Positions 28,702 through 64,000 of a stretch of DNA of 64,000 nt are shown here, piece after piece (position 1 is the first letter of the stretch; every line of letters begins with the position of its first letter). A program made the position numbers and the translations under genes. This DNA comes from a virus. Below the pieces are notes generated by a model. That model made no database searches and was not told the DNA's origin. It was given only the letters and a program-made list of their open reading frames with translations. The stretch spans positions 1-64,000 of IMG/VR virus record IMGVR_UViG_3300044796_000657. The stretch is one strand, 5' to 3'.

Positions 28702-29023
28702 TGTATGGTCACAACCCCCAGGCGTCGCTCGCACGCTCGCTTGACTGTCAGTGCGTGGTGGCGTGACCATACAGCATGTGTGTAAACCCTATGCGATACG
28801 CTGGCATGGGGCGGGTGTGAAATGGCAATGACAGTCGTTTGAATATCTTAGCCCTGCTTGTGACCATACATCCTTTGTCCTTATCCGTTAATGTTACCAA
28901 GACTTCATTGCTCGTGACCATACAACCTATGCCCCCCACTTCGCCGAGGTCGTGCGTCTTAGTAGTAGTGACCATACAATCATTGCTCTCGCTTTGATTG
29001 AGAGCAATGATTGTGACCATACA
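28702..29023. repeat. Cluster of six GTGACCATACA sites between opposing transcription units
   Basis: Copies at 28702 (minus) and 28763, 28860, 28914, 28968 and 29013 (plus). The last four are spaced 54, 54 and 45 bp. There is no supported gene in 28534-29030; a minus frame here simply translates the repeats as CMVT. The plus-oriented copies face the transcription coming from the tandem array. Confidence 0.8.
28978..29012. terminator. Hairpin between two GTGACCATACA sites
   Basis: Perfect 13-bp stem AATCATTGCTCTC / GAGAGCAATGATT with a nine-base loop fills the whole gap between the sites at 28968 and 29013. Confidence 0.65.
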
Positions 29024-29030
29024 CTAGATG

Positions 29031-29789
29031 TTAACCTACATTGCGTAAGTAGTTCCGCAACGTATCTACCTCGTCATAGTCCCCGCTTCCGTTATCATCA
29101 ATCCGTTGTAGAGCCGCAACGGTTAGGCGGCGCAGTTCGTCATAGTCCCGCTTTCGCTGTACGATTGCGTTTGCGGGGCGATCAGGGGCGGCGTGGGGTG
29201 TTTTACCCTTCGGCCCCCAAGCGGCCACCAGTTGCGGATAAGACGTAAAGGGCGTGGGATCTTTATCATCATCGTCAGTCCAAAAGAATGTGCGGCTCTT
29301 CCCCTCGCCCTTGGAACACTGGTCGGAAGGGCAACATACGAACCCCTTCCCCTTATTCCCGTTGCCTTTGGCCTTGACCGTGAACGGAACTAGATCGGCC
29401 CCTTCGCAGTTCGGGCAGAGTCGGCAATAGTTGACTTGGTTCGCCAACTTGCGTAGCATCGCCGTTAGGCGTTCTTCCCACCCCTTGACCCGTGTTACCC
29501 AGCGCTGCGACTTCCCCCCGTGGAAAGTCAAGATAGGCGGTTCCCCCGGCTTCGGGTTCGGCGTGATACTGACAATGCGGCCCCGTATGGAATCCTCACC
29601 GCAACCCTTGCTAGTATCGGCCCCGTCAACCGACGAACGGACTAGGATACCGTAGGGGATGGACGGGAACGGGCGAACTAGGTAAGTATGTTCGCCGAGA
29701 TTGAACCCGGCGTAAGTCCAAAGCGGTTGACCCTTCGGCGCTGGCAGAGCATCCTCAAACTCTTGTTTGGTAAAGTAATCAATAGGCAT
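29031..29789 (-). CDS. 252-aa protein with zinc-ribbon region
   Basis: Start at MPIDYFTKQEF, after AGGGGAAATCC; an upstream ATG comes from a reversed repeat. The centre has CRLCPNCEG and, 25 residues on, FVCCPSDQCSKGEG then RTFFWTDDD, which resembles the zinc ribbons of topoisomerase and GRF-type domains that hold single-stranded DNA. Directly behind the helicase gene, so a DNA-handling role is plausible. Confidence 0.65.
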   Translation of the reverse strand: MPIDYFTKQEFEDALPAPKGQPLWTYAGFNLGEHTYLVRPFPSIPYGILVRSSVDGADTSKGCGEDSIRGRIVSITPNPKPGEPPILTFHGGKSQRWVTRVKGWEERLTAMLRKLANQVNYCRLCPNCEGADLVPFTVKAKGNGNKGKGFVCCPSDQCSKGEGKSRTFFWTDDDDKDPTPFTSYPQLVAAWGPKGKTPHAAPDRPANAIVQRKRDYDELRRLTVAALQRIDDNGSGDYDEVDTLRNYLRNVG

Positions 29790-29802
29790 TGGATTTCCCC
29801 TA

Positions 29803-29869
29803 GTGACCATACATGGAATGTTAACTTGATTTTTTGTAGCTGCGATTAGGCCGAGGTCGTGACCATACA
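29803..29869 (+). repeat. Two plus-oriented GTGACCATACA sites between minus genes
   Basis: Copies at 29803-29813 and 29859-29869, both opposite to the local gene direction, unlike most copies. Confidence 0.8.
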
Positions 29870-29880
29870 GTAGGTACTGC

Positions 29881-29912
29881 CCTAAGCCCCCCGGATAACC
29901 GGGGGGCTTAGG
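29881..29912 (-). terminator. Strong hairpin behind the helicase gene
   Basis: Perfect 14-bp stem CCTAAGCCCCCCGG / CCGGGGGGCTTAGG with an ATAA loop, nine bases after the helicase stop. Confidence 0.75.
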
Positions 29913-29920
29913 TCGTTTAG

Positions 29921-32019: not shown

Positions 32020-32162
32020 TGTATGGTCACAACCCCTCGGCGTCAAGTGAATTCTCAAAATTCGCCCTGCTTGTATGGTCACAATGGGGTCTGGCTATTA
32101 TCGGCCATGCTTGTATGGTCACAATTGCCTTTGAATGTTAACTGCCTTGCTTGTATGGTCAC
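32020..32162 (-). repeat. Four tandem GTGACCATACA sites upstream of the helicase
   Basis: Minus-oriented copies at 32020, 32072, 32112 and 32152, spaced 52, 40 and 40 bp, the last three with the longer form GTGACCATACAAGCA. They lie between 70 and 210 bp ahead of the helicase start. No gene in 31952-32400. Confidence 0.85.
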
Positions 32163-32207: not shown

Positions 32208-32289
32208 GTGACCATACATACGCTGAAAGAAACGGGCTATCTTTGTCTTATGCCCTTGGCGAAGTCCTATTCATGGTGTGTATGGTCAC
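32208..32289 (-). promoter_or_regulatory. Operon-boundary module 1
   Basis: An inverted pair of GTGACCATACA sites encloses 60 bp whose ends are conserved in the modules at 34898, 40269 and 45898: reading minus, ACACACCATGAATAGG after the first site and CCGTTTCTTTCA before the second. A hairpin (GCGAACC/GGTTCGC) lies just upstream at about 32309-32328. Confidence 0.6.
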
Positions 32290-32400
32290 GACGGGGTGGC
32301 CCAATAAAAGCGAACCGATCCGGTTCGCCTATTGGGGTGTCTACCTATTGGCTTGTATGGTCACAGCCTCCTCATTCTGATGATCGTCCAAGTCAGATTG

Positions 32401-32631: not shown

Positions 32632-32676
32632 AATATTAACTCCTATTGGCGGGTTTACACCAATAGGGTTGTATGG

Positions 32677-32862
32677 TCACTCCAATTCCAAGAAGCATCG
32701 TCCGCCGATCACTTTGATGCTCTTGATATTGTAAGACGTTCCGGCTGGTTCGCATTGGGCGACAAGCGAAGTTTCGCCGTCAACTTCAATCTCCTCACCA
32801 GTGTCGGGGTCGTTGCCGTTCAAGAGCGATGATAGAGCGGCATGAAGTTCGTTCGGGTTCAC
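32677..32862 (-). CDS. Unknown 61-aa acidic protein
   Basis: GGAGATTATGCCGTG precedes the ATG. Beta-like C-terminal half. Its TGA stop is the TGA of a GTGACCATACA site. Confidence 0.6.
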   Translation of the reverse strand: MNPNELHAALSSLLNGNDPDTGEEIEVDGETSLVAQCEPAGTSYNIKSIKVIGGRCFLELE

Positions 32863-32974
32863 GGCATAATCTCCAGAGCTTGGGTTTACACCAATAGGAC
32901 TGTATGGTCACTCACTGCCGTCTGCACTGGCAATCGTTGTGGGCTTGCACACGATCTATGCATGGTGCTGCACA

Positions 32975-33298: not shown

Positions 33299-33335
33299 GG
33301 CTGGTCTCCTTGTACCCGTTGGGTTGTATGGTCAC

Positions 33336-33550: not shown

Positions 33551-33584
33551 AACATTGTCTCCTTGTACCCGTTGGGTTGTATGG

Positions 33585-33821
33585 TCACTCCCATACAAGG
33601 CTAATGCCCTTGCGAGAGAGTTTGACACGGCGACGATCTTGGCGGGAAGGCTGAGGGCCGACATTGATGCGATACAGTTGATCCAATTCGGCACAAGCGG
33701 CATCATACTTCCGAAGGGCATGGACATAAGCAACGCCTTGCAGTCCATGAAGTTTGGCGCCGCATTCTTGTTTCTTGGCTTTGAGGCGGACCTTTTCGGC
33801 CTCATATTCGCTCTTGTTCAT
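33585..33821 (-). CDS. Unknown 78-aa basic protein
   Basis: Charged N-terminal coiled-coil-like helix, basic C-terminus (PSRQDRRRVKLSRKG). Stop codon inside a GTGACCATACA site. Confidence 0.6.
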   Translation of the reverse strand: MNKSEYEAEKVRLKAKKQECGAKLHGLQGVAYVHALRKYDAACAELDQLYRINVGPQPSRQDRRRVKLSRKGISLVWE

Positions 33822-33859
33822 GTTAACTCCACCCCTTTGATACTAGGGGGATTGTATGG

Positions 33860-34294
33860 TCACCCCTTGACGAATTCACCGGGTTGAGCATCAAAGAGCT
33901 TGCGGGCTTCTTTCAGCGTCGGGAACGATTCCCAGAATACCCGTTTGCCGTTGCCGAAATCGTGCTGCCGAACGTGAAAACAAGCGTGTTCGTGCCACAA
34001 GTCCGTATCGACGCTTTCTTCTGTGCTTTTGCGTTCAATGTAGCCACAAGCGAAGGAATAGGCCGTTAGGCGTCCATCCTTGCTACGGAAGCTTGGCGAC
34101 TTGTAATTGCGGCTGATTGCGTCCAGCATTTGAGCGTAGGAGCATTGCTTGGCGTGGATCATGCCCGTCAACGCTTTGTATTCGTCGGGGAGGCAAACGC
34201 TTTCAATGTAGTTCGCCCATCCTTGCGTGATAGGCGGCATCTTTGCCTTGCATTCGGCGATAATGGCGATTGCCCTTGCTTGTGAAATTCGCAT
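33860..34294 (-). CDS. Unknown 144-aa protein
   Basis: Starts MRISQARAIAIIAECKAK, with a following helical domain and a His/Cys-containing centre (DTDLWHEHACFHVRQHDF). The tail FPTLKEARKLFD is of the kind seen in small repeat-type phage proteins. Stop within a GTGACCATACA site. Confidence 0.6.
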   Translation of the reverse strand: MRISQARAIAIIAECKAKMPPITQGWANYIESVCLPDEYKALTGMIHAKQCSYAQMLDAISRNYKSPSFRSKDGRLTAYSFACGYIERKSTEESVDTDLWHEHACFHVRQHDFGNGKRVFWESFPTLKEARKLFDAQPGEFVKG

Positions 34295-34333
34295 TTCAAT
34301 TTCTCCCCGTTTGGTATCCAGTGGGATGTATGG

Positions 34334-34576
34334 TCACCGCAAAGAAACGGGTGCTATTGCCAGAATGAGGTCTTCACCCTTGGCCGTAATGTTAACTTGG
34401 CTATTGCCGTCCTTTTCCACTTCTTCCAGCAACTCGGCGATATTATCAGACTTATCGCCCAGACGATACGCCAGAACCAAAGCCTTATCAATGGCTTTCT
34501 GAAACGAATTGGCGTAATGAAGCTCCTGCAGCACGGCGATCCCATCCCGGCTGATGATTGCGACGATGAACAGCAT
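34334..34576 (-). CDS. Unknown 80-aa protein
   Basis: Start at MLFIVAIISRDG, after GAGGGGATTGAA. Alpha/beta, acidic. Stop within a GTGACCATACA site. Confidence 0.6.
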   Translation of the reverse strand: MLFIVAIISRDGIAVLQELHYANSFQKAIDKALVLAYRLGDKSDNIAELLEEVEKDGNSQVNITAKGEDLILAIAPVSLR

Positions 34577-34615
34577 TTCAATCCCCTCTTGGTACCACTT
34601 GGCTTGTATGGTCAC

Positions 34616-34862: not shown

Positions 34863-34980
34863 TGTATGGTCACATTAAACATTAACATCCTGCCACCGTG
34901 ACCATACATGCTGTGAATAGGGCTTTGATTTACATTTGTATATCTTTATTCAAAGTCTTATTCATGGTGTGTATGGTCAC
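34863..34980 (-). promoter_or_regulatory. Operon-boundary module 2
   Basis: Sites at 34863 (minus), 34898 (plus) and 34970 (minus). The minus reading of the enclosed 61 bp starts ACACACCATGAATAAG and ends CCCTATTCACAGCA; the left end matches the other modules better than the right. The gap 34835-35057 holds no other gene. Confidence 0.55.
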
Positions 34981-35114: not shown

Positions 35115-35146
35115 AGTGGTCTCCTTTCATTGTTAAGGTTGTATGG

Positions 35147-35365
35147 TCACTCCAAGAGAGCGGCCAGCAATTCCTCATCGGACAAGTTTTCTGGAACGTC
35201 GGGCGGCAGTCCAAGGCGTTCCCGCTCATCAACAATTTGCTTTTCGTACTGTTTCACCCAGACTTGACGCAATTTACGTTCGTTGTCATTCTTGGCAGAT
35301 GCTAACCGCTGGCGCTCATGACTTAGTCCAAGTTCAAGAGCGTGTAAATGGCTTAGGTCTTTCAT
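35147..35365 (-). CDS. Unknown 72-aa coiled-coil protein
   Basis: Long charged helix (LGLSHERQRLASAKNDNERK and on) and a LSDEELLAALLE end. Only 11 bases separate the upstream GTGACCATACA site from the ATG. Stop is the TGA of the next site. Confidence 0.6.
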   Translation of the reverse strand: MKDLSHLHALELGLSHERQRLASAKNDNERKLRQVWVKQYEKQIVDERERLGLPPDVPENLSDEELLAALLE

Positions 35366-35383
35366 ACCTATTGGCCTGTATGG

Positions 35384-35617
35384 TCACTTCTTTTTCTTCT
35401 TTTGCGTTTCCATTCGTTTGAGCATTTTGCCAAGCTGGTGAAGATCAACCGGCTTATGCATCCTCAATTCCAGTTTATCGGCGAGTTCACGGGTCGTTAA
35501 CTGCCCATGTTCAGCAGTGATTTCGACAATTAGAGTTTTTATGTGCCCCTCCAAGTCGTACCAACTACTGGACGCTTGGTTACTAATGCCTTCGTTTGGC
35601 TTGTCCGTTTCTTTCAT
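35384..35617 (-). CDS. Winged-helix-like small protein (77 aa)
   Basis: GLTTRELADKLELR-type helix-turn-helix (residues about 39-52) with a following helix and a run of five Lys at the end. Probably a small DNA-binding regulator. Stop within a GTGACCATACA site. Confidence 0.5.
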   Translation of the reverse strand: MKETDKPNEGISNQASSSWYDLEGHIKTLIVEITAEHGQLTTRELADKLELRMHKPVDLHQLGKMLKRMETQKKKKK

Positions 35618-35651
35618 GGCTCACCCCCTTGGTAACCATAAGGGTGTATGG

Positions 35652-35927
35652 TCACCCGAAAAGGAGGTGCGTGTGGATGATGTATTCCCGGCGGGTTTCG
35701 TCGGGAAATGTAGTATCGCTGAATTCACCGCTGACGCCGGGCAATTCACCTTCCGGCACTTGATCGCCCTTGAGGAAAGAGAAGCCAGCGTAAACGTCGG
35801 CTTCATAGAGAACACCTTCGAGAATGGAATTCCAACCGGCCCGCAGGTCAGGAGAACAATCCTTGCTCTCCCGGTTGAGCGTGTTCACCCTCTGGATCAA
35901 TCCTTTGACATGAACAGTTTGCCGCAT
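35652..35927 (-). CDS. Unknown 91-aa protein
   Basis: AGAGGCGATACC precedes the ATG. Mixed alpha/beta. TGA stop inside a GTGACCATACA site. Confidence 0.6.
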   Translation of the reverse strand: MRQTVHVKGLIQRVNTLNRESKDCSPDLRAGWNSILEGVLYEADVYAGFSFLKGDQVPEGELPGVSGEFSDTTFPDETRREYIIHTHLLFG

Positions 35928-35942: not shown

Positions 35943-36653
35943 TTAACCATTAGCCTGTATGGTCACCTTCTTGTCGTCGTATTCTTTCATGCCTTCGTAT
36001 GTGTCAAGTTCGCTTGCGGCCCGTTCGTTCATTTTGTAGGCGTTGACTTGATCGCCGACGCACGCTAAGAGCCATTCCAAGCGGTTCACCGTGATGCCCG
36101 CAGGAACGAATTGAGGCGGGAACGTCCACGTTCCTTTGATTGCCTCGGCACACGCTTTCAGGAAGATCAAAGCGTAAAGGCTATTGTGCCAACCGTGCGT
36201 ATAAAGCCCGTAGATTTGCGCCGGGGTGTTCGCACCGTGCGCCCATTCCGGTACCGGCGTCCATCGTGTATCATGCTTGGCGGAAAGAGCTACCGATGTT
36301 TCGCCGTGGTGGTTGTAGTAGGTCGGCTTTTTGTCGCTGTATTTGAGTTTGTGGAAGCGTTGGATCGTGTCCGCCTTCGGTTCCTTCGGCCACATTTGAG
36401 AAATGACGGGGTTGCAGCCATTGGCCCGCATATGACGGGCGAGGGCGTGTAGGAATTCTTCGAGGCGTTCGCTGATAAGTAGGCCCGGCGGGGTGTGTTT
36501 CGTCGGGTAATCGCCCATACAATCGGCAAACGCCACTTGCGGGTTAACCGCTTTGTTGGTGTATCCCCAACGATTATCGGGGTGAAGGTCTGACGGGAAG
36601 ATCATAAAGATATGATCCGGGTTCACCAAACTACGGAATTCAATAACGGCCAT
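35943..36653 (-). CDS. Unknown 236-aa protein
   Basis: TAGGAGTCTTTATC precedes the ATG. Largest unknown of the small-gene string, Trp/His-rich centre. At its end the GTGACCATACA sequence is read as part of the protein (VTIQ), so the site is kept even inside coding DNA. Confidence 0.65.
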   Translation of the reverse strand: MAVIEFRSLVNPDHIFMIFPSDLHPDNRWGYTNKAVNPQVAFADCMGDYPTKHTPPGLLISERLEEFLHALARHMRANGCNPVISQMWPKEPKADTIQRFHKLKYSDKKPTYYNHHGETSVALSAKHDTRWTPVPEWAHGANTPAQIYGLYTHGWHNSLYALIFLKACAEAIKGTWTFPPQFVPAGITVNRLEWLLACVGDQVNAYKMNERAASELDTYEGMKEYDDKKVTIQANG

Positions 36654-36712
36654 GATAAAGACTCCTAGAAGGATGTTAACAACTATCAGGCTGTATGGTC
36701 ACCGAAGATACG

Positions 36713-37056: not shown

Positions 37057-37107
37057 GATCGCAATCCTTTTGAGGTTGATGTTAACAACCATCGGGGTGT
37101 ATGGTCA

Positions 37108-37269
37108 CTAGGACACTTTCAAAGCCTCAATCTTTTCAATCGCCCATTCGAGACCTTGTATCGTGCCTTCATTCTTCCACTTCGCACGATTCCCCGAAAA
37201 ATTGCCAGCGTCGGCCTCTTCTTGACACTGACGCTGCAACTCTTTAAGTTCAGCAAGAATCTTTTCCAT
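37108..37269 (-). CDS. 53-aa helical protein
   Basis: Begins MEKILAELKELQRQCQEEAD, then NFSGNRAKWKNEGTIQGLEW, a two-helix hairpin. The TAG stop runs into a GTGACCATACA site. A longer frame on the same strand is a shadow. Confidence 0.6.
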   Translation of the reverse strand: MEKILAELKELQRQCQEEADAGNFSGNRAKWKNEGTIQGLEWAIEKIEALKVS

Positions 37270-37316
37270 GATCGTTTACCCTTGTGGTTGATGTTAACAA
37301 CCATCGGGGTGTATGG

Positions 37317-37577
37317 TCACAACCACTCGCTTGCGAGGGCTTCAACAATCGGCATGTTGATGTACATTCCGTCGTCCGTTTGATAGACACCAGCTTCGCC
37401 CAACAGAACGGGGGAGCTGAACTTGGTGCCATCCTTCCGAAAAATCTGAGCGGAAGGGAAACGACTGTCTGACACTTCAACGAATGCCCGTTTGCCAGCA
37501 CAACGCATGTGCATGCACACTTCGCTGTGAGGCAATTCAACTTCGACCTTTTGGCCGGGAACTACTGGTTGCCGCAT
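37317..37577 (-). CDS. Unknown 86-aa beta-rich protein
   Basis: GGAGAACGATC precedes the ATG. PGQKVEVELPHSEV start suggests a small barrel. Stop within a GTGACCATACA site. Confidence 0.6.
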   Translation of the reverse strand: MRQPVVPGQKVEVELPHSEVCMHMRCAGKRAFVEVSDSRFPSAQIFRKDGTKFSSPVLLGEAGVYQTDDGMYINMPIVEALASEWL

Positions 37578-37621
37578 GATCGTTCTCCGTTTTGGAAGTT
37601 AACAACCATCGGCCTGTATGG

Positions 37622-37846
37622 TCACTTGCCAAAAACTTTCTTGTGCCGCTTGGCCTTGGCTTTGCGTGCCCGTTCCTTAGCGGTTCGCTTGCGTTTGCCT
37701 ACACCATTGGCATCGGTAGGCGTTCCCCGTTGCTTGCTGTCAAAACGGGGTGGTCGGCGGCGTTCTACTTCGGGGTGAGGCCAAACGGGCCAGCAAGCCC
37801 CGATAAGAGCGAACACGGGCAAAATGCGGGGATGTCGGGCAATCAC
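37622..37846 (-). CDS. 74-aa protein with very basic C-terminus
   Basis: Short hydrophobic start (LPVFALIGACWPVW), then GKRKRTAKERARKAKAKRHK at the end. Could be a membrane-linked nucleic-acid binder. ATGA overlap with the upstream gene, stop in a GTGACCATACA site. Confidence 0.55.
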   Translation of the reverse strand: MIARHPRILPVFALIGACWPVWPHPEVERRRPPRFDSKQRGTPTDANGVGKRKRTAKERARKAKAKRHKKVFGK

Positions 37847-38217: not shown

Positions 38218-38261
38218 CGGTTTACCCTCTTAGTTAACCTTTGCGGTGTATGGTCACAAGC

Positions 38262-38432: not shown

Positions 38433-38476
38433 TGTAAGCCCCTCGGTGTTATACCGTGAGGCTTGTATGGTCACCA

Positions 38477-38839: not shown

Positions 38840-38886
38840 GATTGCGTCTCCTTGGGATGAATGTTAACAACTATCGGGGTGTATGG

Positions 38887-39072
38887 TCACATTTTGAGAT
38901 AGCGGTAGATCGTCGTTTGACTTTTGCCCATGAGACCAGCAATCTCCTTAACGCTCAAACCTTTTTCTTTCAATGCCTTTGCGGCATGGGCGAGGTCGGC
39001 GGGCGTGCTTTTCTTGTAGGGCGTGCTTTCTGCCATTGCTTGACGCAAAGAATCTTCTTCGGCTTGTGTCAT
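38887..39072 (-). CDS. Helix-turn-helix protein of resolvase type (61 aa)
   Basis: The C-terminal GLSVKEIAGLMGKSQTTIYR is a clear helix-turn-helix like the one of Hin/resolvase DNA-binding tails, here without the catalytic domain. Begins MTQAEEDSLRQAMAEST. A small regulator is likely. Stop within a GTGACCATACA site. Confidence 0.7.
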   Translation of the reverse strand: MTQAEEDSLRQAMAESTPYKKSTPADLAHAAKALKEKGLSVKEIAGLMGKSQTTIYRYLKM

Positions 39073-39416: not shown

Positions 39417-39803
39417 TCAACCTGTATGGTCACCAGTGTTGAACGCCATACCGACACAAACGGCCTCATAGATCAACGCTTGCATGCCGCAGGCGCTCAT
39501 TTCGCTGAAGTCCAAACTATCACGGCCACGCATCTCCAAGGGGTGGCCCCAATGCTTTTTGGCCAACTCTACAACCTTCTCCTGAATGAGACAATGCTTG
39601 ACGAACTGCCAGAGAACATTGGCAAAAACGATATGATCCCCGTTGCGCTCACGTTCGTGTAGCCATTTCTCAAACGCATTCAAGAGCTTTTCATGATTGC
39701 CGTAAAACCGATGGAGAGGCTTCCAGCAATCATAGTGCAACGTTTTGAAGATATTGAAGGCTTCGCTTGCCGTGCCTGTTCCAACAATAGCGGGGCTTTT
39801 CAT
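39417..39803 (-). CDS. Unknown 128-aa protein
   Basis: Start at MKSPAIVGTGTA. Helical, with several Cys and His. The GTGACCATACA site at 39423 is read as GDHT just before the stop, another site kept within coding sequence. Confidence 0.55.
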   Translation of the reverse strand: MKSPAIVGTGTASEAFNIFKTLHYDCWKPLHRFYGNHEKLLNAFEKWLHERERNGDHIVFANVLWQFVKHCLIQEKVVELAKKHWGHPLEMRGRDSLDFSEMSACGMQALIYEAVCVGMAFNTGDHTG

Positions 39804-39939
39804 GTTAACTCTCACAAGAACGTCAAGGATGGGATAGCCGGTCGCCTCGGATTTCCCCGGTTGGTCTCACCGTTATATCGGGGTCTCTGTCATAGCTCGC
39901 ACTATCCGGCCTTGACAACTATCAGGCTGTATGGTCACC

Positions 39940-40234: not shown

Positions 40235-40354
40235 TGTATGGTCACGTTAATAGTTAACATCGCCCCACGTGACCATACATGCTTTGAAAGAAACGGGATG
40301 AAGTTGGTGATTGTTCTGGGAATTATGTTGACTATTCATAGGATGTATGGTCAC
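40235..40354 (-). promoter_or_regulatory. Operon-boundary module 3
   Basis: Sites at 40235 (minus), 40269 (plus) and 40344 (minus). The minus reading begins ACATCCTATGAATAGTC and ends CCGTTTCTTTCAAAGCA, nearly identical at both ends to module 4. Confidence 0.65.
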
Positions 40355-40408: not shown

Positions 40409-40435
40409 CTCTTTTGTACCTATCAGGCTGTATGG

Positions 40436-40825
40436 TCACCCGGCGTTGCGGAGGATGTCTTGCATCGTCCAAGGTTCATCGTCGGCGGCGGGCTTGTCGG
40501 GCCGGTTGTCGTATTGCTCTGCGATGTCAGCGCAATTGGCATCGTGGGCGAAGTCGGACGGGGCGAGGTGGCCTAGATAGTCCTCGTTCGTGGTATGGAG
40601 TTTGTTGCGGTGTTCCCATCGCAGCATTGCCGTGCGGTAGTCGGTTTCCGTCTTGCCGAAGTAGTCCCCGCTGGAGAAAGAGATTGCGAACTTGGTAGCG
40701 CCCGCTTGGTAAGTTTGGTTGTGAACCACAAACTCACCTTTGAAGTTTTTGTAAAGGACGATGCGGATCGCCATATCGTTTCCGTTCATCATCCAAGGGC
40801 CAGCCGCAAGATAGAGCCGTTTCAT
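40436..40825 (-). CDS. Unknown 129-aa protein
   Basis: Start at MKRLYLAAGPW after GGAGACCTGACA. Beta-rich N-terminal half, acidic helical end. Stop within a GTGACCATACA site. Confidence 0.6.
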   Translation of the reverse strand: MKRLYLAAGPWMMNGNDMAIRIVLYKNFKGEFVVHNQTYQAGATKFAISFSSGDYFGKTETDYRTAMLRWEHRNKLHTTNEDYLGHLAPSDFAHDANCADIAEQYDNRPDKPAADDEPWTMQDILRNAG

Positions 40826-40890
40826 TGTCAGGTCTCCGGGGTGAAGTTCTTTACAACTATCGGGGTGTATGGTCACGCTTATGTTAAATG

Positions 40891-41281: not shown

Positions 41282-41479
41282 TTAACCTTCGGGCTGTATG
41301 GTCACCGCTTGGCGTTTCTTCTCAAACTCTCTATCATCATCTTCAACGATGAGACGGTTGATTGTCTTATTGACGTTGCAACCACGCACGCCCATCAAAC
41401 AGACTGACCAATTTCCGCCGTGAACACTCTCACGGATGGAATAGGTTCCGTCGTTCTCTTTAACCCCTTTGTAAAGCAT
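41282..41479 (-). CDS. Unknown 65-aa protein
   Basis: Start at MLYKGVKENDGTYSIRES after AAAGGGGGCTTCA. Beta-rich start. The site at 41295 is read as VTIQ near the stop. Confidence 0.55.
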   Translation of the reverse strand: MLYKGVKENDGTYSIRESVHGGNWSVCLMGVRGCNVNKTINRLIVEDDDREFEKKRQAVTIQPEG

Positions 41480-41537
41480 TGAAGCCCCCTTTCTAAACAT
41501 AGGGGTGTATGGTCACGATCATTGCGGTTAACGACAA

Positions 41538-42928: not shown

Positions 42929-42977
42929 ACAAAACTCCTGAAAGAAAAAAGGGTGAAAAACGTTCCCGACATAAAGG

Positions 42978-43005: not shown

Positions 43006-43091
43006 GACTCAAACTAACAATTTTCGGGAAATTCCGATTTTATTGTGTCGCATGAGTCCGGGGATTTGATTTCCCCTTACAACCAACCCGC

Positions 43092-43227
43092 TGTATGGTC
43101 ACCATCATCGGGTCAGTCATTGTTTCAACACTAGCCACCCTGTATGGTCACTTCTCTCTTAAGATTGCGGCCAAACATTAACTTCCTTCAATGTACACTT
43201 TGAAACGCATTAACAGTGTATGGTCAC
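43092..43227 (-). repeat. Three tandem GTGACCATACA sites upstream of the ParB-like gene
   Basis: Minus-oriented copies at 43092, 43141 and 43217 within a 350-bp gene-free stretch, 90-220 bp ahead of the promoter at 42978-43005. Confidence 0.85.
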
Positions 43228-43497: not shown

Positions 43498-43548
43498 AAG
43501 GCACCCTAGTTAAAGAAACAAAGCCCACCAGTGAGGCGGGCTGTATGG

Positions 43549-43692
43549 TCACTTCTTCTTCGACTTCTTCGGCGGCGGAGACACTCGCTCATCTTCAGAA
43601 CACGCATTGAGGAAATAGCCGGTAAACTTCGTTTCGTTGTGCCAGAATTCGCCGTCACTCGGTTGCTGCGCTGAACAGTTCGCAAAGCTCAA
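43549..43692 (-). CDS. 47-aa protein with unusual start
   Basis: The frame (SFANCSAQQPSDGEFWH ... KKSKKK) looks protein-like and ends in the TGA of a GTGACCATACA site, but the only start is TTG 43692 without a ribosome site. It is in frame with the upstream gene, whose TGA lies in a variant site (AGTATGGTCAC), so stop-codon readthrough is an alternative. Confidence 0.35.
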   Translation of the reverse strand: MSFANCSAQQPSDGEFWHNETKFTGYFLNACSEDERVSPPPKKSKKK

Positions 43693-43704
43693 TTCACAGT
43701 ATGG

Positions 43705-44139
43705 TCACTCCGGTATCTGTTCCTCAATCACCCATCCATTGATGTCGCCCACAACCTCAACTTGCCAGCGGTTCGGCTTGCCCTCCTTCTTATTAACTTC
43801 CGTTACCTCACGAATCTCACAACCCCGACCCTCAATGTAGGCTACTGCCGATGCCTTCGACCCGCACACTTTCACCGTTCCACTTGGGAAATGAAGAGCC
43901 ACGAACACCGGTACCTTAACACGCTCGCTCCACTCAATCCCATCACCAAACGCCTGCAGCCAATCCCACAAGGCGGCGGGCTTCAAAAGAGGGCTGATCG
44001 TCCGATGCCCCATTGCCGCACTGACCAACGAACGGCGGCGATTATTGCTATCCAACTCAAACATGAGCTGGTTGCCAGTATTGCGGTTCAAACGATCCAC
44101 AACACGCTGTAGATCATCACGACTGAAACGACGGGCCAT
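43705..44139 (-). CDS. Unknown 144-aa protein
   Basis: AGGAGACAAGTC precedes the ATG. Basic helical N-terminus (MARRFSRDDLQRVVDRLNR), a middle with LWDWLQAFG, and a beta-rich C-terminus. The leader holds both intergenic motif types. Confidence 0.6.
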   Translation of the reverse strand: MARRFSRDDLQRVVDRLNRNTGNQLMFELDSNNRRRSLVSAAMGHRTISPLLKPAALWDWLQAFGDGIEWSERVKVPVFVALHFPSGTVKVCGSKASAVAYIEGRGCEIREVTEVNKKEGKPNRWQVEVVGDINGWVIEEQIPE

Positions 44140-44157: not shown

Positions 44158-44253
44158 GGCACACTAACTGCACACACCCCTGTATGGTCACCCTAGTACC
44201 ATTAACACCCAATACTGAACAAACGTTCAGTATTGGGCACATTACCTGCACAC
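44158..44253 (-). repeat. Compound leader with both motif types
   Basis: Second-type motif at 44236-44253 and 44158-44175, with a GTGACCATACA site (44181-44191) and a hairpin (44208-44237) between. Confidence 0.75.
44208..44237 (-). terminator. Perfect 13-bp hairpin
   Basis: CCCAATACTGAAC / GTTCAGTATTGGG with an AAAC loop, behind the 44258 gene. Confidence 0.75.
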
Positions 44254-44548: not shown

Positions 44549-44582
44549 CAGTGATCTCCTTAGTACCACAACGCCTGTATGG

Positions 44583-44936
44583 TCACAGTTGGGCCAAAAC
44601 CAAAGCATCTGACCACATGTTGGGCTTCTTTGTCTCAATCTCTTCCATCCAACCCAAAACAACTATCAAATCAGCCGAACGTGTTAACAAACGCCAACGC
44701 CAAGGAATCGGCCCAGATTCATCAACCTCATCACCCGGCATCGCAACCGCATACTTGCCAGATTCCGTCTGCACAATCACGGGACGTAAACTGCTATGGT
44801 TGAGAAGGGTTTTCAAATCTTTCAATGACTCCAATCCCATGCTCGCTAAATCCTTGTCGTCGGCTTTCATTCGCATCCGACAACCATTAAGACAATCATG
44901 AATACGAGCTAAACATTTTTTGATAGCAGGACTCAT
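44583..44936 (-). CDS. Unknown 117-aa protein
   Basis: Start at MSPAIKKCLARIHDCLNG; an ATG nine bases earlier is possible. Helical N-terminus. Stop within a GTGACCATACA site; a second-type motif lies in its leader (44951-44968). Confidence 0.55.
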   Translation of the reverse strand: MSPAIKKCLARIHDCLNGCRMRMKADDKDLASMGLESLKDLKTLLNHSSLRPVIVQTESGKYAVAMPGDEVDESGPIPWRWRLLTRSADLIVVLGWMEEIETKKPNMWSDALVLAQL

Positions 44937-45504: not shown

Positions 45505-45542
45505 GTGATGTCCCCCTGATAACCACAAGGCTGTATGGTCAC

Positions 45543-45877: not shown

Positions 45878-45983
45878 TGTATGGTCACCACGCCCCTGTG
45901 ACCATACACGCCATGAAAGAAACGGACTAAATGAACTACCACTCCCCACCAATTTGACGACTATTCATAGGATGTATGGTCAC
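45878..45983 (-). promoter_or_regulatory. Operon-boundary module 4
   Basis: Sites at 45878 (minus), 45898 (plus) and 45973 (minus); ends ACATCCTATGAATAGTC and CCGTTTCTTTCATGGC on the minus strand match module 3. Confidence 0.65.
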
Positions 45984-46034: not shown

Positions 46035-46203
46035 CAACTTGCCGGTGATCGGGCAAAAATAATCAGGACACGGTGGTGAAGCGTTTCATGTTCATTCTCC
46101 TCTTGGCTATGCCCCCGAACTTGGGGCGGGTTTCAGGAAACGGGGAAAGTCTGGGTGATGTTCACAGGTTCGGTATCAGATGCCCATCAGCCTGTATGGT
46201 CAC

Positions 46204-47377
46204 TCGTCTTGGTGTCTACCGGGCCGTTAGTGAGGAGGATCAACTCTGTCATTGGCAACTAGCACGCAGGCGACGATATTGGCGGTCGGCGGCGGCAAGT
46301 ATCAGTTAACCCTCGGAAGCGGCGTTGTCGTCATGGTTGCCGCTGTGATCGGGCCGGTTTTCGGTATCAGGCTAATGGGCATCCTCTGGAAAAAAAGAAG
46401 GAACAAAGCTACGGGAATGGGTTTGGTTTTTTCATGGCGTGGTCTTTCATATAGGTATGGCCCCGGCTTTTGACGCTGCCCACTCAGCACCTAGACACCG
46501 AAAGGGTATCATTAAGGGCCATTTACGGGTGTGGGACATGAGCGACACTAGCCAAAAACAGAACTTCTCGGCAACATGTTATTCTCCGCCGTTGAGGGTG
46601 TTGGGCGTTTCAAATGGGCCGGGATACTACTTCTCGCCTACCTAAGCGGCTCGTTTGTGTCCGGTCAGGCCCGAAGCGAGTTTTTACAATCTAGTCCCGG
46701 TCAGCACGGATGCCTATGCTAATGGAATACCAACCATTAGCACCTTGGCTCCGATGTCTGTTTAGGGAAATCCCGATGTGAACATCGTAGCACCATCCTT
46801 TCATTAGGTTTATACAATTCCGGGCTGCTTAACCATCCTGAATGTTCCCGACGACCCGTGAGGGCTATCTATCTCACGGCACTTACGCACGCCGGGAACT
46901 ACCCAAGATACTACCACGTACTCTTTGGCCTGTCAAGACCATTCTTCACAATTATCACGGTGTATGGTCACTCGCTGAACATCCGTATATCTTCGCTCTC
47001 TTGGCCGTTAACATCCACAACGTGACCATACAGAAAACTTGGCGTTCAACCCTTAGAGATCCATCAGGATTCCAGCCCTTTTTCATACTTTTCATTTTCA
47101 GTGGTGGGCTTGGAATTGACTGCATTGGCCTTTGAAATGGTTTCCGGTGGCAAAATGGTGGGGCGTGCGTTAGAATGTCAGACAGTAGACAAGAGGGGGC
47201 TAGTACCAACCCATAGAGACCCCCTTGACTTTCCCCGTCAATCCCCTACCATATCCTTTATGTACAATACAGTGGTATGCTCTTTAACGGCTTTTTCCTG
47301 TTAAATGGCACTTTGGGCTTGTCTAGGCTTTGGCATTCTGTACGATAGTCTTATGGTGTTAGTGGTGGGGGTTCGGT
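46204..47377. other. 1.2-kb stretch without a convincing gene
   Basis: No minus-strand frame has a good start. On the plus strand, weak frames with protein-like membrane segments are seen: TTG 46252-46473 (KYQLTLGSGVVVMVAAVIG), ATG 46576-46722 (FKWAGILLLAYLSGSF) and ATG 47305-47424 (FGILYDSLMVLVVG). A 23-bp exact repeat lies at 46367-46389 and 47378-47400, the second copy covering the stop of the next minus gene. A convergent pair of GTGACCATACA sites is at 46961 and 47022. It may be a decayed region. Confidence 0.45.
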
Positions 47378-49159: not shown

Positions 49160-49214
49160 TGTTGTTCTCGTTTGAGGGTTTTGGGGAATTTCCCTTTATG
49201 TTAAGGGTGTATGG

Positions 49215-49457
49215 TCACTGTGATTTGTAGGTTGCTTGTCCTACGTTAAATCCTTTGGCGAAGCCTTCGAGTTTGTGGTTGATTTCCTTGATTTGTTCGG
49301 GTGTGAGTTCGTTGAGTGAGAGAAATGCGATTGCGTATCCCTCTTTGAAGTGTGCGGTGAAGTGTGCACCGCTACTTCTGAATGTTTCGGTGGCGAATTC
49401 GATGAGTGCGTTGGCTTGATTGTAATTCAAGCCTTTGAGTGTGGTTTGGTAATTCAC
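49215..49457 (-). CDS. Unknown 80-aa protein
   Basis: GTG start with AAGGAGAGACT upstream, overlapping the previous stop as GTGA. Alpha/beta. Stop within a GTGACCATACA site. Confidence 0.6.
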   Translation of the reverse strand: MNYQTTLKGLNYNQANALIEFATETFRSSGAHFTAHFKEGYAIAFLSLNELTPEQIKEINHKLEGFAKGFNVGQATYKSQ

Positions 49458-49972: not shown

Positions 49973-50004
49973 GGTTGTTTCCCCTTTATTTTAAGGGTGT
50001 ATGG

Positions 50005-50271
50005 TCACTTGATTTCTTGGATGTGGAAAGGTTTGACTGTGGCGACGAGTCTTGTGCCGATGCCTAGTGTATCTCTCATGATTTGTGCGGCTTCTCCGAG
50101 TGGTCCGCTACTTGTTTTGAGCATGGTGTCGAGTAGTTTGGCACGGTCGGCGCATTTCTGTTTGGCTTTGGGGTCTTTATCGGGATTTGGGAATACGCAA
50201 ACGTCTTGAGTTTGTCGGTATTGTCCGTTTCCGATGGCGTAGGTGATGATAACGCAGCAGTAGGATTCCAT
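50005..50271 (-). CDS. Unknown 88-aa protein
   Basis: Start MESYCCVIITYAIGNG after AAGGAAAATACCA. Stop within a GTGACCATACA site. Confidence 0.55.
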   Translation of the reverse strand: MESYCCVIITYAIGNGQYRQTQDVCVFPNPDKDPKAKQKCADRAKLLDTMLKTSSGPLGEAAQIMRDTLGIGTRLVATVKPFHIQEIK

Positions 50272-50315
50272 TGGTATTTTCCTTAGTGCCTCTTGGTAAC
50301 CATGAGGGTGTATGG

Positions 50316-50621
50316 TCACCGTCTAGCTCGGTAGAAGTGTGTTGTGTGGCTTGCTTTGGGGCCGAGCTGGTATCCCAACTGGAAAAATTCGTGGTGATCG
50401 GCGGGTGTGCTGGTGTAGCCTATGGAGGGCTTGTATTTCCAATAGAAGCCGGGTTGTGATTCTATGTGTATCTTAACGATTTCAATGAGGTTTTCGGTTT
50501 TATCCTTGTGGTCGATCATTATGAGTGTATCGCCCGGTTTCAGGATACTGAGTTTGATGATACGTCGTTGTTTGCGGTATCCGTTTGTGGGGCGTCCGAG
50601 TTCATAGGTTCTGTTTGCCAT
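50316..50621 (-). CDS. 101-aa protein, paralogue of 51683
   Basis: MANRTYELGRPTNGYRKQRR start, then GDTLIMIDHKDKTENLIE, shared almost word for word with the 51683 product. The middle part looks like a small beta barrel. Stop within a GTGACCATACA site. Confidence 0.65.
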   Translation of the reverse strand: MANRTYELGRPTNGYRKQRRIIKLSILKPGDTLIMIDHKDKTENLIEIVKIHIESQPGFYWKYKPSIGYTSTPADHHEFFQLGYQLGPKASHTTHFYRARR

Positions 50622-50623
50622 TG

Positions 50624-50758: not shown

Positions 50759-50835
50759 TTGGTTCTCCTTGAAAGTAGGTGGTTTAGGTCTGCCGTATCC
50801 TTGCTTTTATGGTTTTCTTTGACACCGCAACCCGG

Positions 50836-51240: not shown

Positions 51241-51242
51241 TG

Positions 51243-51422
51243 TTAACCTCGTAGTTTGGCGATGGCGGTTGGGGCGATGGCAATGAGCAGCAGGACGATC
51301 ATGAGTACGAACACCATACTCATCCAAAAGACGACCTTAAGTTCCTCTTGGACTCTTTTGAGTTGGGATTGTAGGGCTTCGATTTCGGCTTTTTGTGCTG
51401 CTAGTTCTTCTTGAATGGTCAT
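51243..51422 (-). CDS. 59-aa coiled-coil membrane protein
   Basis: Begins MTIQEELAAQKAEIEALQSQ, a clean coiled coil, then one hydrophobic helix. The layout is that of small spanin- or holin-partner proteins, but nothing proves it. ATGA overlap with 51419. Confidence 0.6.
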   Translation of the reverse strand: MTIQEELAAQKAEIEALQSQLKRVQEELKVVFWMSMVFVLMIVLLLIAIAPTAIAKLRG

Positions 51423-51649
51423 TGGATTCCTGCCAGTTGGTTAATGAGTTCGTCGGCGTCGGTGTTTGTATCGTGGCAGAACTTAGCGAAGTCGGCTTCG
51501 AAGTTTGTGGCGAAGAATTCTATTTGGTGACTGCCGCCTTGACCAGAGTTGTAGACTTCGGCAACGGGGGTGTCATTGAGTGTGAGGATTGCTCCGAGAG
51601 TGTAGGAGTATTCGCCCTTTTGTTTCTCTGCGTGTTGGAGTTTATACAT
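51419..51649 (-). CDS. Unknown 76-aa acidic protein
   Basis: Begins MYKLQHAEKQKGEYSYTLGA; a beta-strand centre with a helical end. Coupled to 51243 by ATGA. Confidence 0.55.
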   Translation of the reverse strand: MYKLQHAEKQKGEYSYTLGAILTLNDTPVAEVYNSGQGGSHQIEFFATNFEADFAKFCHDTNTDADELINQLAGIQ

Positions 51650-51682
51650 GGCTTAAGTTCGTTTGGTGAAGGTTCCTAGATC

Positions 51683-51979
51683 CTAGTAAGCCATTGCTTT
51701 GTGGAAGTAGGTGTTTTTGTTAAGGTCGTTGGCCCAAGTGAACGATTCTTGGTTCAGGCCGGGGCAGGGTGTGTTGTGTTTGTCTTGTTTGTATTTCCAT
51801 GCGAATCCTTTGGATGGGGATTCTCGAAGTTCGGTGACTTCGATGAGGTTTTCGGTTTTGCCGTCGTGGTCAATCATGATGAGGGTATCGCCCACTTGGA
51901 GCAATTTCATCTTGGTGACCCGTTTGGTTTTGCGGTATCCGGCTGTGGAACGTCCAGCATCGTAGGTTCGCTTGGCCAT
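51683..51979 (-). CDS. 98-aa protein, paralogue of 50316
   Basis: MAKRTYDAGRSTAGYRKTKR start, GDTLIMIDHDGKTENLIEV core. The 50316 gene is the second copy 1.3 kb away, with unrelated genes between. Confidence 0.65.
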   Translation of the reverse strand: MAKRTYDAGRSTAGYRKTKRVTKMKLLQVGDTLIMIDHDGKTENLIEVTELRESPSKGFAWKYKQDKHNTPCPGLNQESFTWANDLNKNTYFHKAMAY

Positions 51980-52014
51980 TTTGTTTCCCCTGTGTTAACA
52001 ATAAGGGTGTATGG

Positions 52015-52162
52015 TCACTGGAATGTGATGGTGTAGTATTCGTCCGTATATTTGCCGTTTTGTTGTGCGGAGGACTTCGGCTTGTTTATTTGAATCGAAC
52101 ATTTTGGTTAGGTCTGGGGCATTGTGGTAGCCGAGAACTTTGTGGTTGAAAATTTGGAACAT
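52015..52162 (-). pseudogene. Small gene with a single-base shift
   Basis: The first frame (MFQIFNHKVLGYHNAPDLTK) loses sense after about 22 residues. The sensible ending NGKYTDEYYTITFQ is in another frame and closes on the TGA of the GTGACCATACA site at 52008, as expected here. One extra base near 52095-52100 explains it. Intact product about 48 aa. Confidence 0.5.
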
Positions 52163-61398: not shown

Positions 61399-61430
61399 GA
61401 CACTCCCCTATTACCTTTTAGGGTGTATGG

Positions 61431-62297
61431 TCACCAACCATTGATATAAGGCAAAAACGGATAGTAAACACGTACATTGACATGATTACTTTTCATGATG
61501 CGTAGAATGTCTTCCATTCTCATTGCCTTGAAAATCGCATCAGCCATCCATACGGGACAATTAGCCCACAATTCATAAGTTCCATCACCACTATTGCGAA
61601 GACTGCCATTAGTCTCATACGGAACAAAACGAAGTTCGGCAGTGAAGCCCAAACTGGTAAGTGTTGTATGGTGTGGTGTCAATGCGCCACGGGCATACTT
61701 TCCCGCTCCATACCCTTGCGATGAATAAGAATACGTTGAGGATGTGTCAAGCAGTTGAGGTTCACCGCCAACAATCGGCGTTACTTGTTTGGCAAGCGAC
61801 CACAATAAATCCTCACGTTCTTTCTTTTGTTTGGCAAGTTGAGCATCGTATTCACTGATCTTGTACTTGGTTAACAATCTATTCTTCAACGCTTCAATGA
61901 AAGCATCGTCCAGAGGATCAAGGTTTTTCTTCTTGGGTTGACGACGCTTTTGCTCTTGTAATAGGAGTTGAGTGAATTCCTTCTGCGCCGTTTCTTTGGT
62001 TGTTTTGAAAGTGGCGTAAAATGTGCTTTTGAATGGGTCTTGCTCGTATGCTGCTTTGTATTGTTCGTTTGGTGTGCCTGATACACTCAACGTTAACAGC
62101 GGAGCAATTTCAATGGGCTTGACTGCTTTGACTTGCGGCTTAGTTGAAAGGAGATCGTAATTGCAGAAATCACAGATGATCGTGCCTTCAGGGATGCGAT
62201 TGAGGCATCCGGGGCATTCGTCCATTGTGAAATCGTAACCACATTGGCATACTTCGCCTTGCGGTCGTGCTTTACATTGTGGACAAGTAGTAATCAT
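61431..62297 (-). CDS. 288-aa protein with double zinc ribbon
   Basis: N-terminal CPQCKA...CQCGYDF and CPGCLNR...CDFCNYDL form a double zinc ribbon (residues 5-47), followed by a charged helical middle and a beta-rich C-terminal 90 residues. Stop within a GTGACCATACA site. Function unknown; the ribbon suggests a protein or nucleic-acid contact. Confidence 0.65.
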   Translation of the reverse strand: MITTCPQCKARPQGEVCQCGYDFTMDECPGCLNRIPEGTIICDFCNYDLLSTKPQVKAVKPIEIAPLLTLSVSGTPNEQYKAAYEQDPFKSTFYATFKTTKETAQKEFTQLLLQEQKRRQPKKKNLDPLDDAFIEALKNRLLTKYKISEYDAQLAKQKKEREDLLWSLAKQVTPIVGGEPQLLDTSSTYSYSSQGYGAGKYARGALTPHHTTLTSLGFTAELRFVPYETNGSLRNSGDGTYELWANCPVWMADAIFKAMRMEDILRIMKSNHVNVRVYYPFLPYINGW

Positions 62298-62315
62298 ACC
62301 AATAGGGATGTATGG

Positions 62316-62681
62316 TCACAGACCGCCCGACTTCTTGAGAACACGCCCGTTAACGGCATTGCCAATTTTTTGCTGTGAAACTTTGATTTTAGGCAGTTTG
62401 CGTTTACCAGCCCACTTCAGCATTGTAGGCGTCAAGATAATCGTTGCGTTTGGATCTTTTGAACCAATCGTAATGATACTAGCGTAGAAGCTCACCCTTG
62501 CCTCAGTGTTGGCCAATCGCATGATCTTCTCAATGATTGCTGTGGTTTCGGCTTCATTGAGTTTGGGGAATGTATCACCACGCTGAAATGCCGGAATCAA
62601 ATCAATGATTCCTTGTCTTGTCGCAACAGCTTGAGCAGCCCTAGCAGGATCGCTCAAGTCGTTTAGTTCTGGGAATGGCAT
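62316..62681 (-). CDS. Unknown 121-aa protein
   Basis: Start MPFPELNDLSDPARAAQAV after AAAGGAGAGTTAAC. Helical, basic C-terminus. Stop within a GTGACCATACA site. Confidence 0.6.
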   Translation of the reverse strand: MPFPELNDLSDPARAAQAVATRQGIIDLIPAFQRGDTFPKLNEAETTAIIEKIMRLANTEARVSFYASIITIGSKDPNATIILTPTMLKWAGKRKLPKIKVSQQKIGNAVNGRVLKKSGGL

Positions 62682-62915: not shown

Positions 62916-63128
62916 TTATCTCATACATTGGAAGGGAACGGCAGTGACGTTGATGCTGATGTCATCTGATTTGATGGGGCAAATGACATCACTTGCGATT
63001 TTTTTGGCATGGTCTGCATTCTGAATGCCTTGGACGCCAGAGTTAAGGTAAAACGTAGGCACTTGATGCGTCAAATCGCCTTTTGCTGTGTGATGAACAA
63101 CAGTGGCATCAATGGCATATAGTAGCAT
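62916..63128 (-). CDS. Unknown 70-aa protein
   Basis: Start MLLYAIDATVVHHTAKGDLT after AGGGAGAACGTC. Compact beta-rich protein. Confidence 0.6.
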   Translation of the reverse strand: MLLYAIDATVVHHTAKGDLTHQVPTFYLNSGVQGIQNADHAKKIASDVICPIKSDDISINVTAVPFQCMR

Positions 63129-63165
63129 GACGTTCTCCCTTATAACCATGTGGGTGTATGGTCAC

Positions 63166-63513
63166 TCATATCATGGGATCAAAGGCAAGGAAAGTGTTAA
63201 ACTTAGGCCATTGTAAATGAGTTGCTAAGTCTTTGTTTTTATTGGCCCACTTGGTATTACAAGCGTAACAAGCCATAACAGTGTTAGGTCGTTCTATAAA
63301 AAGTTCTATATCATCAAATAGAACCCAAACACCATCAAGTGCCCCACCCTTACTAACAGGTCGTATATGTTCAACTGTTGCCATATAATCAGGAAATTGT
63401 ATCCCTTGAGGCTGCGGTTGCGGCAACTCCGTTAAACCAAAACACCAGAAGCATGTTCCCATTTGCTTGAAGAACAAATTATCCAATACCTCTCGCTTTC
63501 TCTTGCTTCCCAC
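63166..63513 (-). CDS. HNH nuclease-like protein
   Basis: 115 residues. CFWC (C21, C24), ATVEHIRPVSKGG (E48, H49), N77 and CYACNTKWANK (C82, C85) give the zinc-bound HNH core. The final His is replaced by Asn/Lys in NTKWANK, as in many HNH proteins. A GTGACCATACA site follows the stop. Confidence 0.75.
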   Translation of the reverse strand: MGSKRKREVLDNLFFKQMGTCFWCFGLTELPQPQPQGIQFPDYMATVEHIRPVSKGGALDGVWVLFDDIELFIERPNTVMACYACNTKWANKNKDLATHLQWPKFNTFLAFDPMI

Positions 63514-63522
63514 GACAGTTTC

Positions 63523-63645
63523 CTATTTTAATTCAACATCAATTTTACATGATGTTAAGGTTACCACGGAATGGTATTCGGCTTTGACTCGTATTTGCTT
63601 GTGCTGACATCCTGCAAGCAACAAGATAAGCATCCATGCTTTCAT
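63523..63645 (-). CDS. 40-aa lipoprotein
   Basis: MKAWMLILLLAGCQHKQIRV start with a clear lipobox (LLAGC, Cys13) and a short mature part. GAAAGGTTCAA precedes the ATG. Rz1-like in size, but without a partner gene in sight. Confidence 0.6.
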   Translation of the reverse strand: MKAWMLILLLAGCQHKQIRVKAEYHSVVTLTSCKIDVELK

Positions 63646-63657
63646 TTGAACCTTTCG

Positions 63658-63927
63658 TTAGTTGATGCCAAGTGCGTGATAATTGGCCCGCACATCGGCC
63701 ATATGGTTTCGGTAAATGTTTGTGTGATTCGGCAACACGCTGACCAGATCATTACGGTGAACTTGAAACAGTTGGGGATACTGCCGAGGGTTGATACCGT
63801 ATTTCACCTTAACCTCTTCAACAGTGAGGTATCCCGGCGATGGCATCCAAGCAGTCTTGCAAACAACCTCCAGAATGATCGCTTCACGACTTCCGGGTTC
63901 AGGAATTTGGCTGAATGCTGCTGCCAT
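63658..63927 (-). CDS. Unknown 89-aa protein
   Basis: AGGGGCTTTATC precedes the ATG. GYLTVEEVKVKYGINPRQYP looks like a short helix-turn-helix, so DNA binding is possible. Confidence 0.55.
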   Translation of the reverse strand: MAAAFSQIPEPGSREAIILEVVCKTAWMPSPGYLTVEEVKVKYGINPRQYPQLFQVHRNDLVSVLPNHTNIYRNHMADVRANYHALGIN

Positions 63928-64000
63928 GATAAAGCCCCTCGTTGTTAACCATAAGGGTGTATGGTCACGTTATAGTTCAGGGGAAAATTCACAGATGTTG

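Follow-up and report, generated by a model that had tools for sequence, protein, structure and literature searches.

The 64,000-nucleotide stretch analysed here (the window) forms the first 64 kb of a virus record of 430,229 bases, IMGVR_UViG_3300044796_000657, and it contains 68 exact copies of an 11-bp word, GTGACCATACA, where dinucleotide shuffling leads to an expectation of 0.02. We propose, with a probability of about 0.74, that a promoter private to the phage is recognised through this invariant word, and that a phage specificity factor redirects the host RNA polymerase to it. Relative to the predicted start the element would span about -22 to -12 (or to -9), RNA would begin at the purine of a pyrimidine-purine (YR) step 22 nucleotides (nt) after the first G of the word, and the transcript would be either leaderless, with its ATG at +1, or equipped with a short leader carrying a Shine-Dalgarno (SD) sequence. 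Each site would drive one or a few small accessory genes, with terminators or the stop codon of the neighbouring gene often adjoining the following site. The enzyme would most likely be the host RNA polymerase core together with a phage-encoded sigma factor or small DNA-binding protein, and factor and target word would have changed together among related huge phages.

Together with a single one-mismatch copy the window holds 69 sites, 55 on the minus and 14 on the plus strand, in agreement with an earlier note on this DNA, which had counted about 69 near-identical sites and judged an exact 11-mer rarer by chance than one per 64 kb. The whole record contains 104 copies (87 minus, 17 plus), nearly every one of them within 28-137 kb. 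One-mismatch copies number 7 genome-wide against 6.5 expected, so genuine near-misses are practically absent, and the one in the window, at 43698, is probably a chance occurrence that is not functional. The flanking sequence varies site by site and the copies are therefore not the product of recent duplication of longer units. As the earlier note had it, the word lies mostly between genes: 90 of the 104 copies are intergenic, in a record of which intergenic DNA makes up just 13%. In 34 cases the upstream gene takes its stop codon from the TGA within the word, and the spacing between co-oriented sites is most often one gene. The claim that most copies point with transcription holds for the 87/104 whose next gene is co-oriented with the site, but not for 12 plus-strand copies in the minus block, which are mostly aimed at no gene and stand in arrays or facing pairs.

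Taking the first G of GTGACCATACA as index 0, the profile 3' of the word shows CCC at 11-13, A at 16, T at 17, G at 19, a pyrimidine at 21 and a purine at 22; the word is often extended to GTGACCATACACCC, and the CCC is found in 90% or more of the sites beyond 52.5 kb, being weaker before that point. No conserved position was detected from -40 to -1 before the word in this record, and the conserved element ends 9-12 nt before the predicted +1. The YR step at index 21/22 is present at 78 of 104 sites, and at 59 of the 64 where a gene follows. Six long open reading frames (ORFs) have their ATG exactly at index 22, against no such ORF at 23-28; these six genes, which have no other nearby start, follow sites 35377, 62309, 64771, 67753, 116803 and 124547. 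The remaining gene starts fall mostly at index 36 or later, 14 or more nt past 22, and the distance from the end of the word to the start codon is either 11 or about 25 and more nt, with the SD downstream of the word. The ribosome site of the leadered genes begins near index 25, these sites lying at index 25-33; 85% of these genes have an SD, as do 42% of other genes, and among 33 short-leader genes there are 30 with the SD within the first 12 nt of their predicted leader. A transcription start at index 22 would be expected to produce this pattern of YR step, ATG and ribosome site.

The record encodes DNA polymerase III alpha, a DEAD-box (Holliday-junction-type) helicase and a DnaB-like helicase, as well as terminase, NAD synthetase and tRNA synthetase genes, and can therefore be assigned to a tailed huge phage. 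Only one close relative has a name, LR756511.1 (W01; DnaE 40%, helicase 49%), an uncultured phage of 595 kb, and core-gene alignments place at least 160 IMG/VR contigs in the same clade. GTGACCATACA is absent from all 16 clade records searched, which were found by core genes, and a search of IMG/VR returned three contigs only, two consisting of simple repeats and one in which the word occurs once. Two apparently unrelated viral contigs (L031, L032) end with simple repeats of units resembling the word. Five of the eight relatives whose sequence was read carry another dominant invariant word, mostly intergenic and directional and with a YR step at a fixed distance: ATACCAACTAG in G004 (83 copies, all on one strand; YR in 62/83), AAGCTGTACWWA in LR756511 (40 copies; 29/40), AAGTTTGATTGTACAAT in G006 (50 copies; 43/50), AATTGCAATTGTACCA in G011 (54 copies; 49/54) and GGTACGGTT in G012 (35 copies; 22/35). 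Ten long ORFs of G011 have their ATG exactly at the predicted +1, over a background of 0.4 per position, and a TAC occurs 13-16 nt before the predicted +1 in all six words, a result obtained in 0 of 3000 shuffles. A looser network without a sharp initiator is present in G007 (AATTGTAC, 24 intergenic copies), and no word network was found in G013 or the 120-kb fragment G005; in LR756511 the DnaE flank has no enriched word and the network lies elsewhere in the record. The earlier note had suggested looking for the 11-mer in relatives and would have taken its absence there as a refutation; the word itself is missing there, but other words fill the same role and thus support its expression-system reading. 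A dyad or hairpin of the form GTGACCATA-N6-TATGGTTAC was rejected, as position 18 misfits and the relatives' words are mostly non-palindromic, only that of G006 being a palindrome.

The surroundings of the sites bear on a quite unlikely alternative, in which the word, as part of a long transcript, is an RNA-level signal for cleavage (or translation) at the YR step and so yields separate mRNAs. Y-R steps are common RNA cleavage points, the sites do lie between co-oriented genes, and at many G004 sites a GC-rich hairpin starts in the motif, its 5' arm enclosing the predicted +1; judging from its layout, this hairpin would form in read-through RNA and not in new RNA. Against this, intrinsic terminators stand immediately 5' of sites, in 7.7% of cases in this record versus 1.6% of other genes, and in 15% versus 0.6% for W01, 24% versus 1.2% for G006 and 20% versus 2.4% for G011 relative to controls. 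The earlier note's placement of sites after terminators is borne out at 39928, 40866, 41506 and 43217, and at 40866 only 14 nt separate the U-run from the motif, a gap that could hardly accommodate another promoter. Where divergent sites stand 9-24 bp apart, moreover, each would head a transcript of its own. The hairpins of G004 lack an R'/R'' core on reading of the sequence, and attC-like gene cassettes were rejected.

T4 MotA boxes replace the -35 box, and the word could be imagined as an activator or -35-type element of this kind, with T-R-T-n-A-A at 21-26 as the -10 box and a start near index 33. A weak TRTnAA is indeed seen at 21-26 in this record and at 24-29 in G006, at a spacing that suits a -35/-10 pair. 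We nevertheless rejected this very unlikely reading on the evidence of start codons and ribosome sites: the index-22 start codons would precede the RNA and 30 of the 33 short-leader genes would lose their ribosome site. The A at -11 is also a G in one third of the sites, and no such box is seen in G004 or G012. The difference from T4 middle promoters is that a TATAAT-like -10 with a start about 33 nt from the beginning of the box is not what we see here, the ATG being at index 22 and the ribosome sites at 25-33.

The promoter reading has also to be weighed against silencing of the stoperator type, whereby an immunity repressor bound at asymmetric intergenic sites blocks elongation or initiation, an explanation to which we give little credence. 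The sites share with those of L5 and other cluster A mycobacteriophages four features, namely asymmetry, near-invariance, intergenic position and orientation with transcription (PMC9283540), and the gene-less arrays and facing pairs, as well as the arrays before the ParB-helix-turn-helix (HTH) and helicase genes, would suit such a role. However, a pure silencer predicts neither the fixed-distance YR step, nor the ATG at its purine, the ribosome sites after it and the terminators before it; here most sites precede a predicted start and head a gene's leader. In addition, core-gene alignments revealed no clade member in GTDB genomes, and no relative was found there as a prophage. The start-associated sequences (SAS) of cluster K mycobacteriophages are likewise one-directional words before many small non-structural genes, possibly with the upstream stop codon inside, but an AGGAG is part of them and the start codon is 3-7 nt away (PMC3203893), whereas our word contains no SD and stops 11, or else about 25 or more, nt short of the start codon. 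The resemblance to both systems that the earlier note drew is thus one of layout, the predicted start at a fixed distance and, for SAS, the position and the SD setting most of our sites apart; of its suggestion of a genome-wide silencing or expression system, the expression half stands and the silencing half is not supported.

If the word is a promoter element, which protein would read it? Multisubunit RNA polymerase (PF00623) gave no match over cut-off in 12 records, with 14 controls positive; PF00562 is absent from our record, and the catalytic motif of these polymerases was not found. T7-type polymerase (PF00940) is equally absent from it, with nothing over cut-off in ten relatives (T7 control, E=1e-109). 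Phage sigma genes were identified in all records but G012, two of them in our record, at 143989-144774 (regions 2 and 4) and 195733-196254 (region 2). The latter belongs to a short family shared with LR756511 and G005, the former to a longer one shared with LR756511 and G004, and a third family is found at a conserved position in LR756511, G004, G006, G007, G011 and G013; we presume that it resembles T4 gp55. T4 late promoters depend on gp55 and TATAAATA. Several of these phages also show an enrichment of TATAAATA and of sigma70-type boxes ahead of their genes, and the private word therefore probably represents an additional class of promoter. A double-HTH protein of 103-104 amino acids (aa), encoded at 374177-374488 here, at 489466 in LR756511 and at 161844 in G011, is another candidate reader. 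It is conceivable, if doubtful, that the invariant 11-17-bp word was swapped wholesale with the layout kept (TAC core, initiator, leaderless or minimal leader, terminator-promoter abutment), that its reader is neither a phage RNA polymerase nor a recognised phage sigma, the double-HTH protein being an example, and that the resulting systems are mutually deaf.

Among known systems, phiEco32 (tAATGTAtA) and Salmonella phage 7-11 use a phage sigma and a single conserved -10-region element (PMC4331800). Our proposed promoters would share with them, and with T4 late promoters, one -10-region element, no conserved -35, a short distance to the start, a phage sigma gene and, presumably, the host polymerase; they differ in that the element contains GC, is longer (11-17 bp) and lies further upstream (-25 to -7), in a different word per relative, in leaderless starts and in the embedded stop codon. 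The predicted promoters of 7-11 are, furthermore, ten somewhat variable copies (PMC4331800) as compared to 104 invariant ones. In jumbo phages that encode their own polymerases, promoters are long and strict and the start lies 6-7 nt further on, as in the early and late promoters of AR9, AAATATATATTAT-6N-G and AACA-6N-T(A/G), where the last base is the start (PMC5312081). The long strict element, the gap of about 6-9 nt to the start and the Y-R of AR9 late promoters recall our sites, but phiKZ and AR9 encode multisubunit RNA polymerases, none of which was found here, and AR9 leaders measure 26-491 nt (PMC5312081) versus 0 or mostly 14-30 nt. The moraphages, a large-phage lineage also lacking a polymerase, have a sigma-F-like factor, with no promoter word described for them (PMC12619734), and in the open-licence literature searched we did not find this promoter class described for polymerase-less huge phages.

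Several observations weigh against the proposed promoter. Gene calls came from a simple home-made finder, and the +1 index was picked from the same data among about 25 candidate positions; the YR signals and the leaderless signals of our record and G011 survive correction for these, and the leaderless counts of W01, G004, G006 and G012 are small and do not stand alone, the ATGs of G006 falling 2 nt before the YR purine. For about 40 of the 104 sites no gene was called immediately 3', and the YR step is present at only 19 of these; some 20-25 sites in arrays or facing pairs lack both gene and initiator, and may be binding sites with another role. Finally, no one sigma family is common to all six network phages, and no sigma was found in G012, an incomplete record that lacks the replication core.

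The genes behind the sites are short (median 106 aa), and 8% of them have a homologue in the eight relatives versus 31% of other genes. Few known domains were recognised among the 59 scanned, these including tRNA-His guanylyltransferase, tRNA nucleotidyltransferase and a clamp-loader-like ATPase. Three or four tandem sites precede the genes for a ParB-HTH protein (41585-43012) and a UvrD-like helicase (29921-31951). The former has no relative in the first four relatives read or the phage collection, and parS-like sites, which were rejected, therefore do not explain the clade-wide layout. The seven plus-strand sites at 28763-29869 run counter to the genes around them. Hairpins occur between these sites or behind them, ORFs are absent, and the sites possibly represent small RNAs, decoys or a binding array. 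The four facing-site cassettes are 82-86 bp long, with unrelated middles, no convincing ORF and inverted ends of about 20 bp (GTGACCATACAnnCnnTGAAWRG...CTATTCATnGnnTGTATGGTCAC). Positions 48000-52000 show a GC skew of +0.28 and an AT skew of -0.37, unlike the rest of the window. The record (G000) lacks 23 gene clusters common to all large relatives, including portal and baseplate genes, and is therefore probably an incomplete assembly; the missing clusters were seen on comparing its region at about 361-368 kb with 380-441 kb of G004. Elsewhere in the clade, the DnaE ORF at L017:12284-14785 is short of about 350 N-terminal residues found in a relative, a split gene being possible; TATGGCGTGGGTTGAAAC, in appearance a CRISPR repeat, is present about 20 times in the 527-kb relative G007 (IMGVR_UViG_3300005613_000001); and ribonucleotide reductase genes of W01 (444162-448055) and G006 (105400-108983) are apparently interrupted by intein-like sequence.

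Table 1. Sites of the word in the window, with predicted transcription starts (+1) and downstream gene starts.
Feature	Position	Strand	Predicted +1	Gene start or remark
Site	4988..4998	+	5010	gene 5041-5694
Site with YR	21885..21895	+	21907
Site without gene	28702..28712	-		divergent to 28763
Five-site array (28763, 28860, 28914, 28968, 29013)	28763..29023	+		no ORF behind; hairpin between last two
Two sites (29803, 29859)	29803..29869	+		no gene; strong hairpin after second
Four-site tandem array (32020, 32072, 32112, 32152)	32020..32162	-	32008	initiator at 32020 only; 5' of helicase gene
Facing-pair cassette 1	32208..32289	32208 +, 32279 -
Site with YR	32354..32364	-	32342	no gene called
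Putative promoter	32670..32680	-	32658	32631
Putative promoter	32901..32911	-	32889	32862 (GTG)
Putative promoter	33325..33335	-	33313	33298
Site with YR	33578..33588	-	33566
Putative promoter	33853..33863	-	33841	33821
Putative promoter	34327..34337	-	34315	34294
Putative promoter	34605..34615	-	34593	34576
Putative promoter	34863..34873	-	34851	34834
Facing-pair cassette 2	34898..34980	34898 +, 34970 -
Site with YR	35140..35150	-	35128
Putative promoter, leaderless	35377..35387	-	35365	ATG at +1, gene 35147-35365
Putative promoter	35645..35655	-	35633	35617
Putative promoter	35956..35966	-	35944	35927
Putative promoter	36692..36702	-	36680	36653
Putative promoter	37098..37108	-	37086	37056
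Putative promoter	37310..37320	-	37298	37269
Putative promoter	37615..37625	-	37603	37577
Putative promoter	38247..38257	-	38235	38217
Site with YR	38464..38474	-	38452
Putative promoter	38880..38890	-	38868	38839
Putative promoter	39423..39433	-	39411	39393
Site	39928..39938	-	39916	directly 3' of intrinsic terminator
Putative promoter	40235..40245	-	40223	40205 (GTG)
Facing-pair cassette 3	40269..40354	40269 +, 40344 -		40344 after terminator
Site with YR	40429..40439	-	40417
Putative promoter	40866..40876	-	40854	40825; directly 3' of intrinsic terminator
Putative promoter	41295..41305	-	41283	41262
Putative promoter	41506..41516	-	41494	41479; after terminator
Three tandem sites (43092, 43141, 43217)	43092..43227	-		5' of ParB-HTH gene; 43217 after terminator
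Putative promoter	43542..43552	-		43497
One-mismatch copy GTGACCATACT	43698..43708	-		no initiator, no gene
Putative promoter	44181..44191	-	44169	44139
Putative promoter	44576..44586	-	44564	44548
Site with YR	45532..45542	-	45520
Site with YR	45878..45888	-	45866	divergent to 45898
Facing-pair cassette 4	45898..45983	45898 +, 45973 -		45973 after terminator
Site with YR	46193..46203	-	46181
Site with YR	46961..46971	-	46949
Site with YR	47022..47032	+	47044
Site, extended form	49208..49218	-
Putative promoter, extended form	49998..50008	-		49972
Putative promoter, extended form	50309..50319	-	50297	50271
Putative promoter, extended form	52008..52018	-	51996	51979
Putative promoter, extended form	61424..61434	-	61412	61398
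Putative promoter, leaderless	62309..62319	-	62297	ATG at +1, gene 61431-62297
Putative promoter, extended form	63155..63165	-	63143	63128
Putative promoter, extended form	63958..63968	-	63946	63927

Our analysis predicts, to the single base, where transcription starts for hundreds of genes of viruses that have never been grown, and offers a rule by which such promoters can be searched for in other huge phages: one invariant word per phage, a YR step at a fixed distance and a peak of leaderless ATGs. The words of these phages make up a natural series of promoter words, apparently diverged inside one clade. They raise the questions of how a phage alters its recognition word at 35-100 sites simultaneously, and of whether the change of word isolates the accessory genes from co-infecting relatives.

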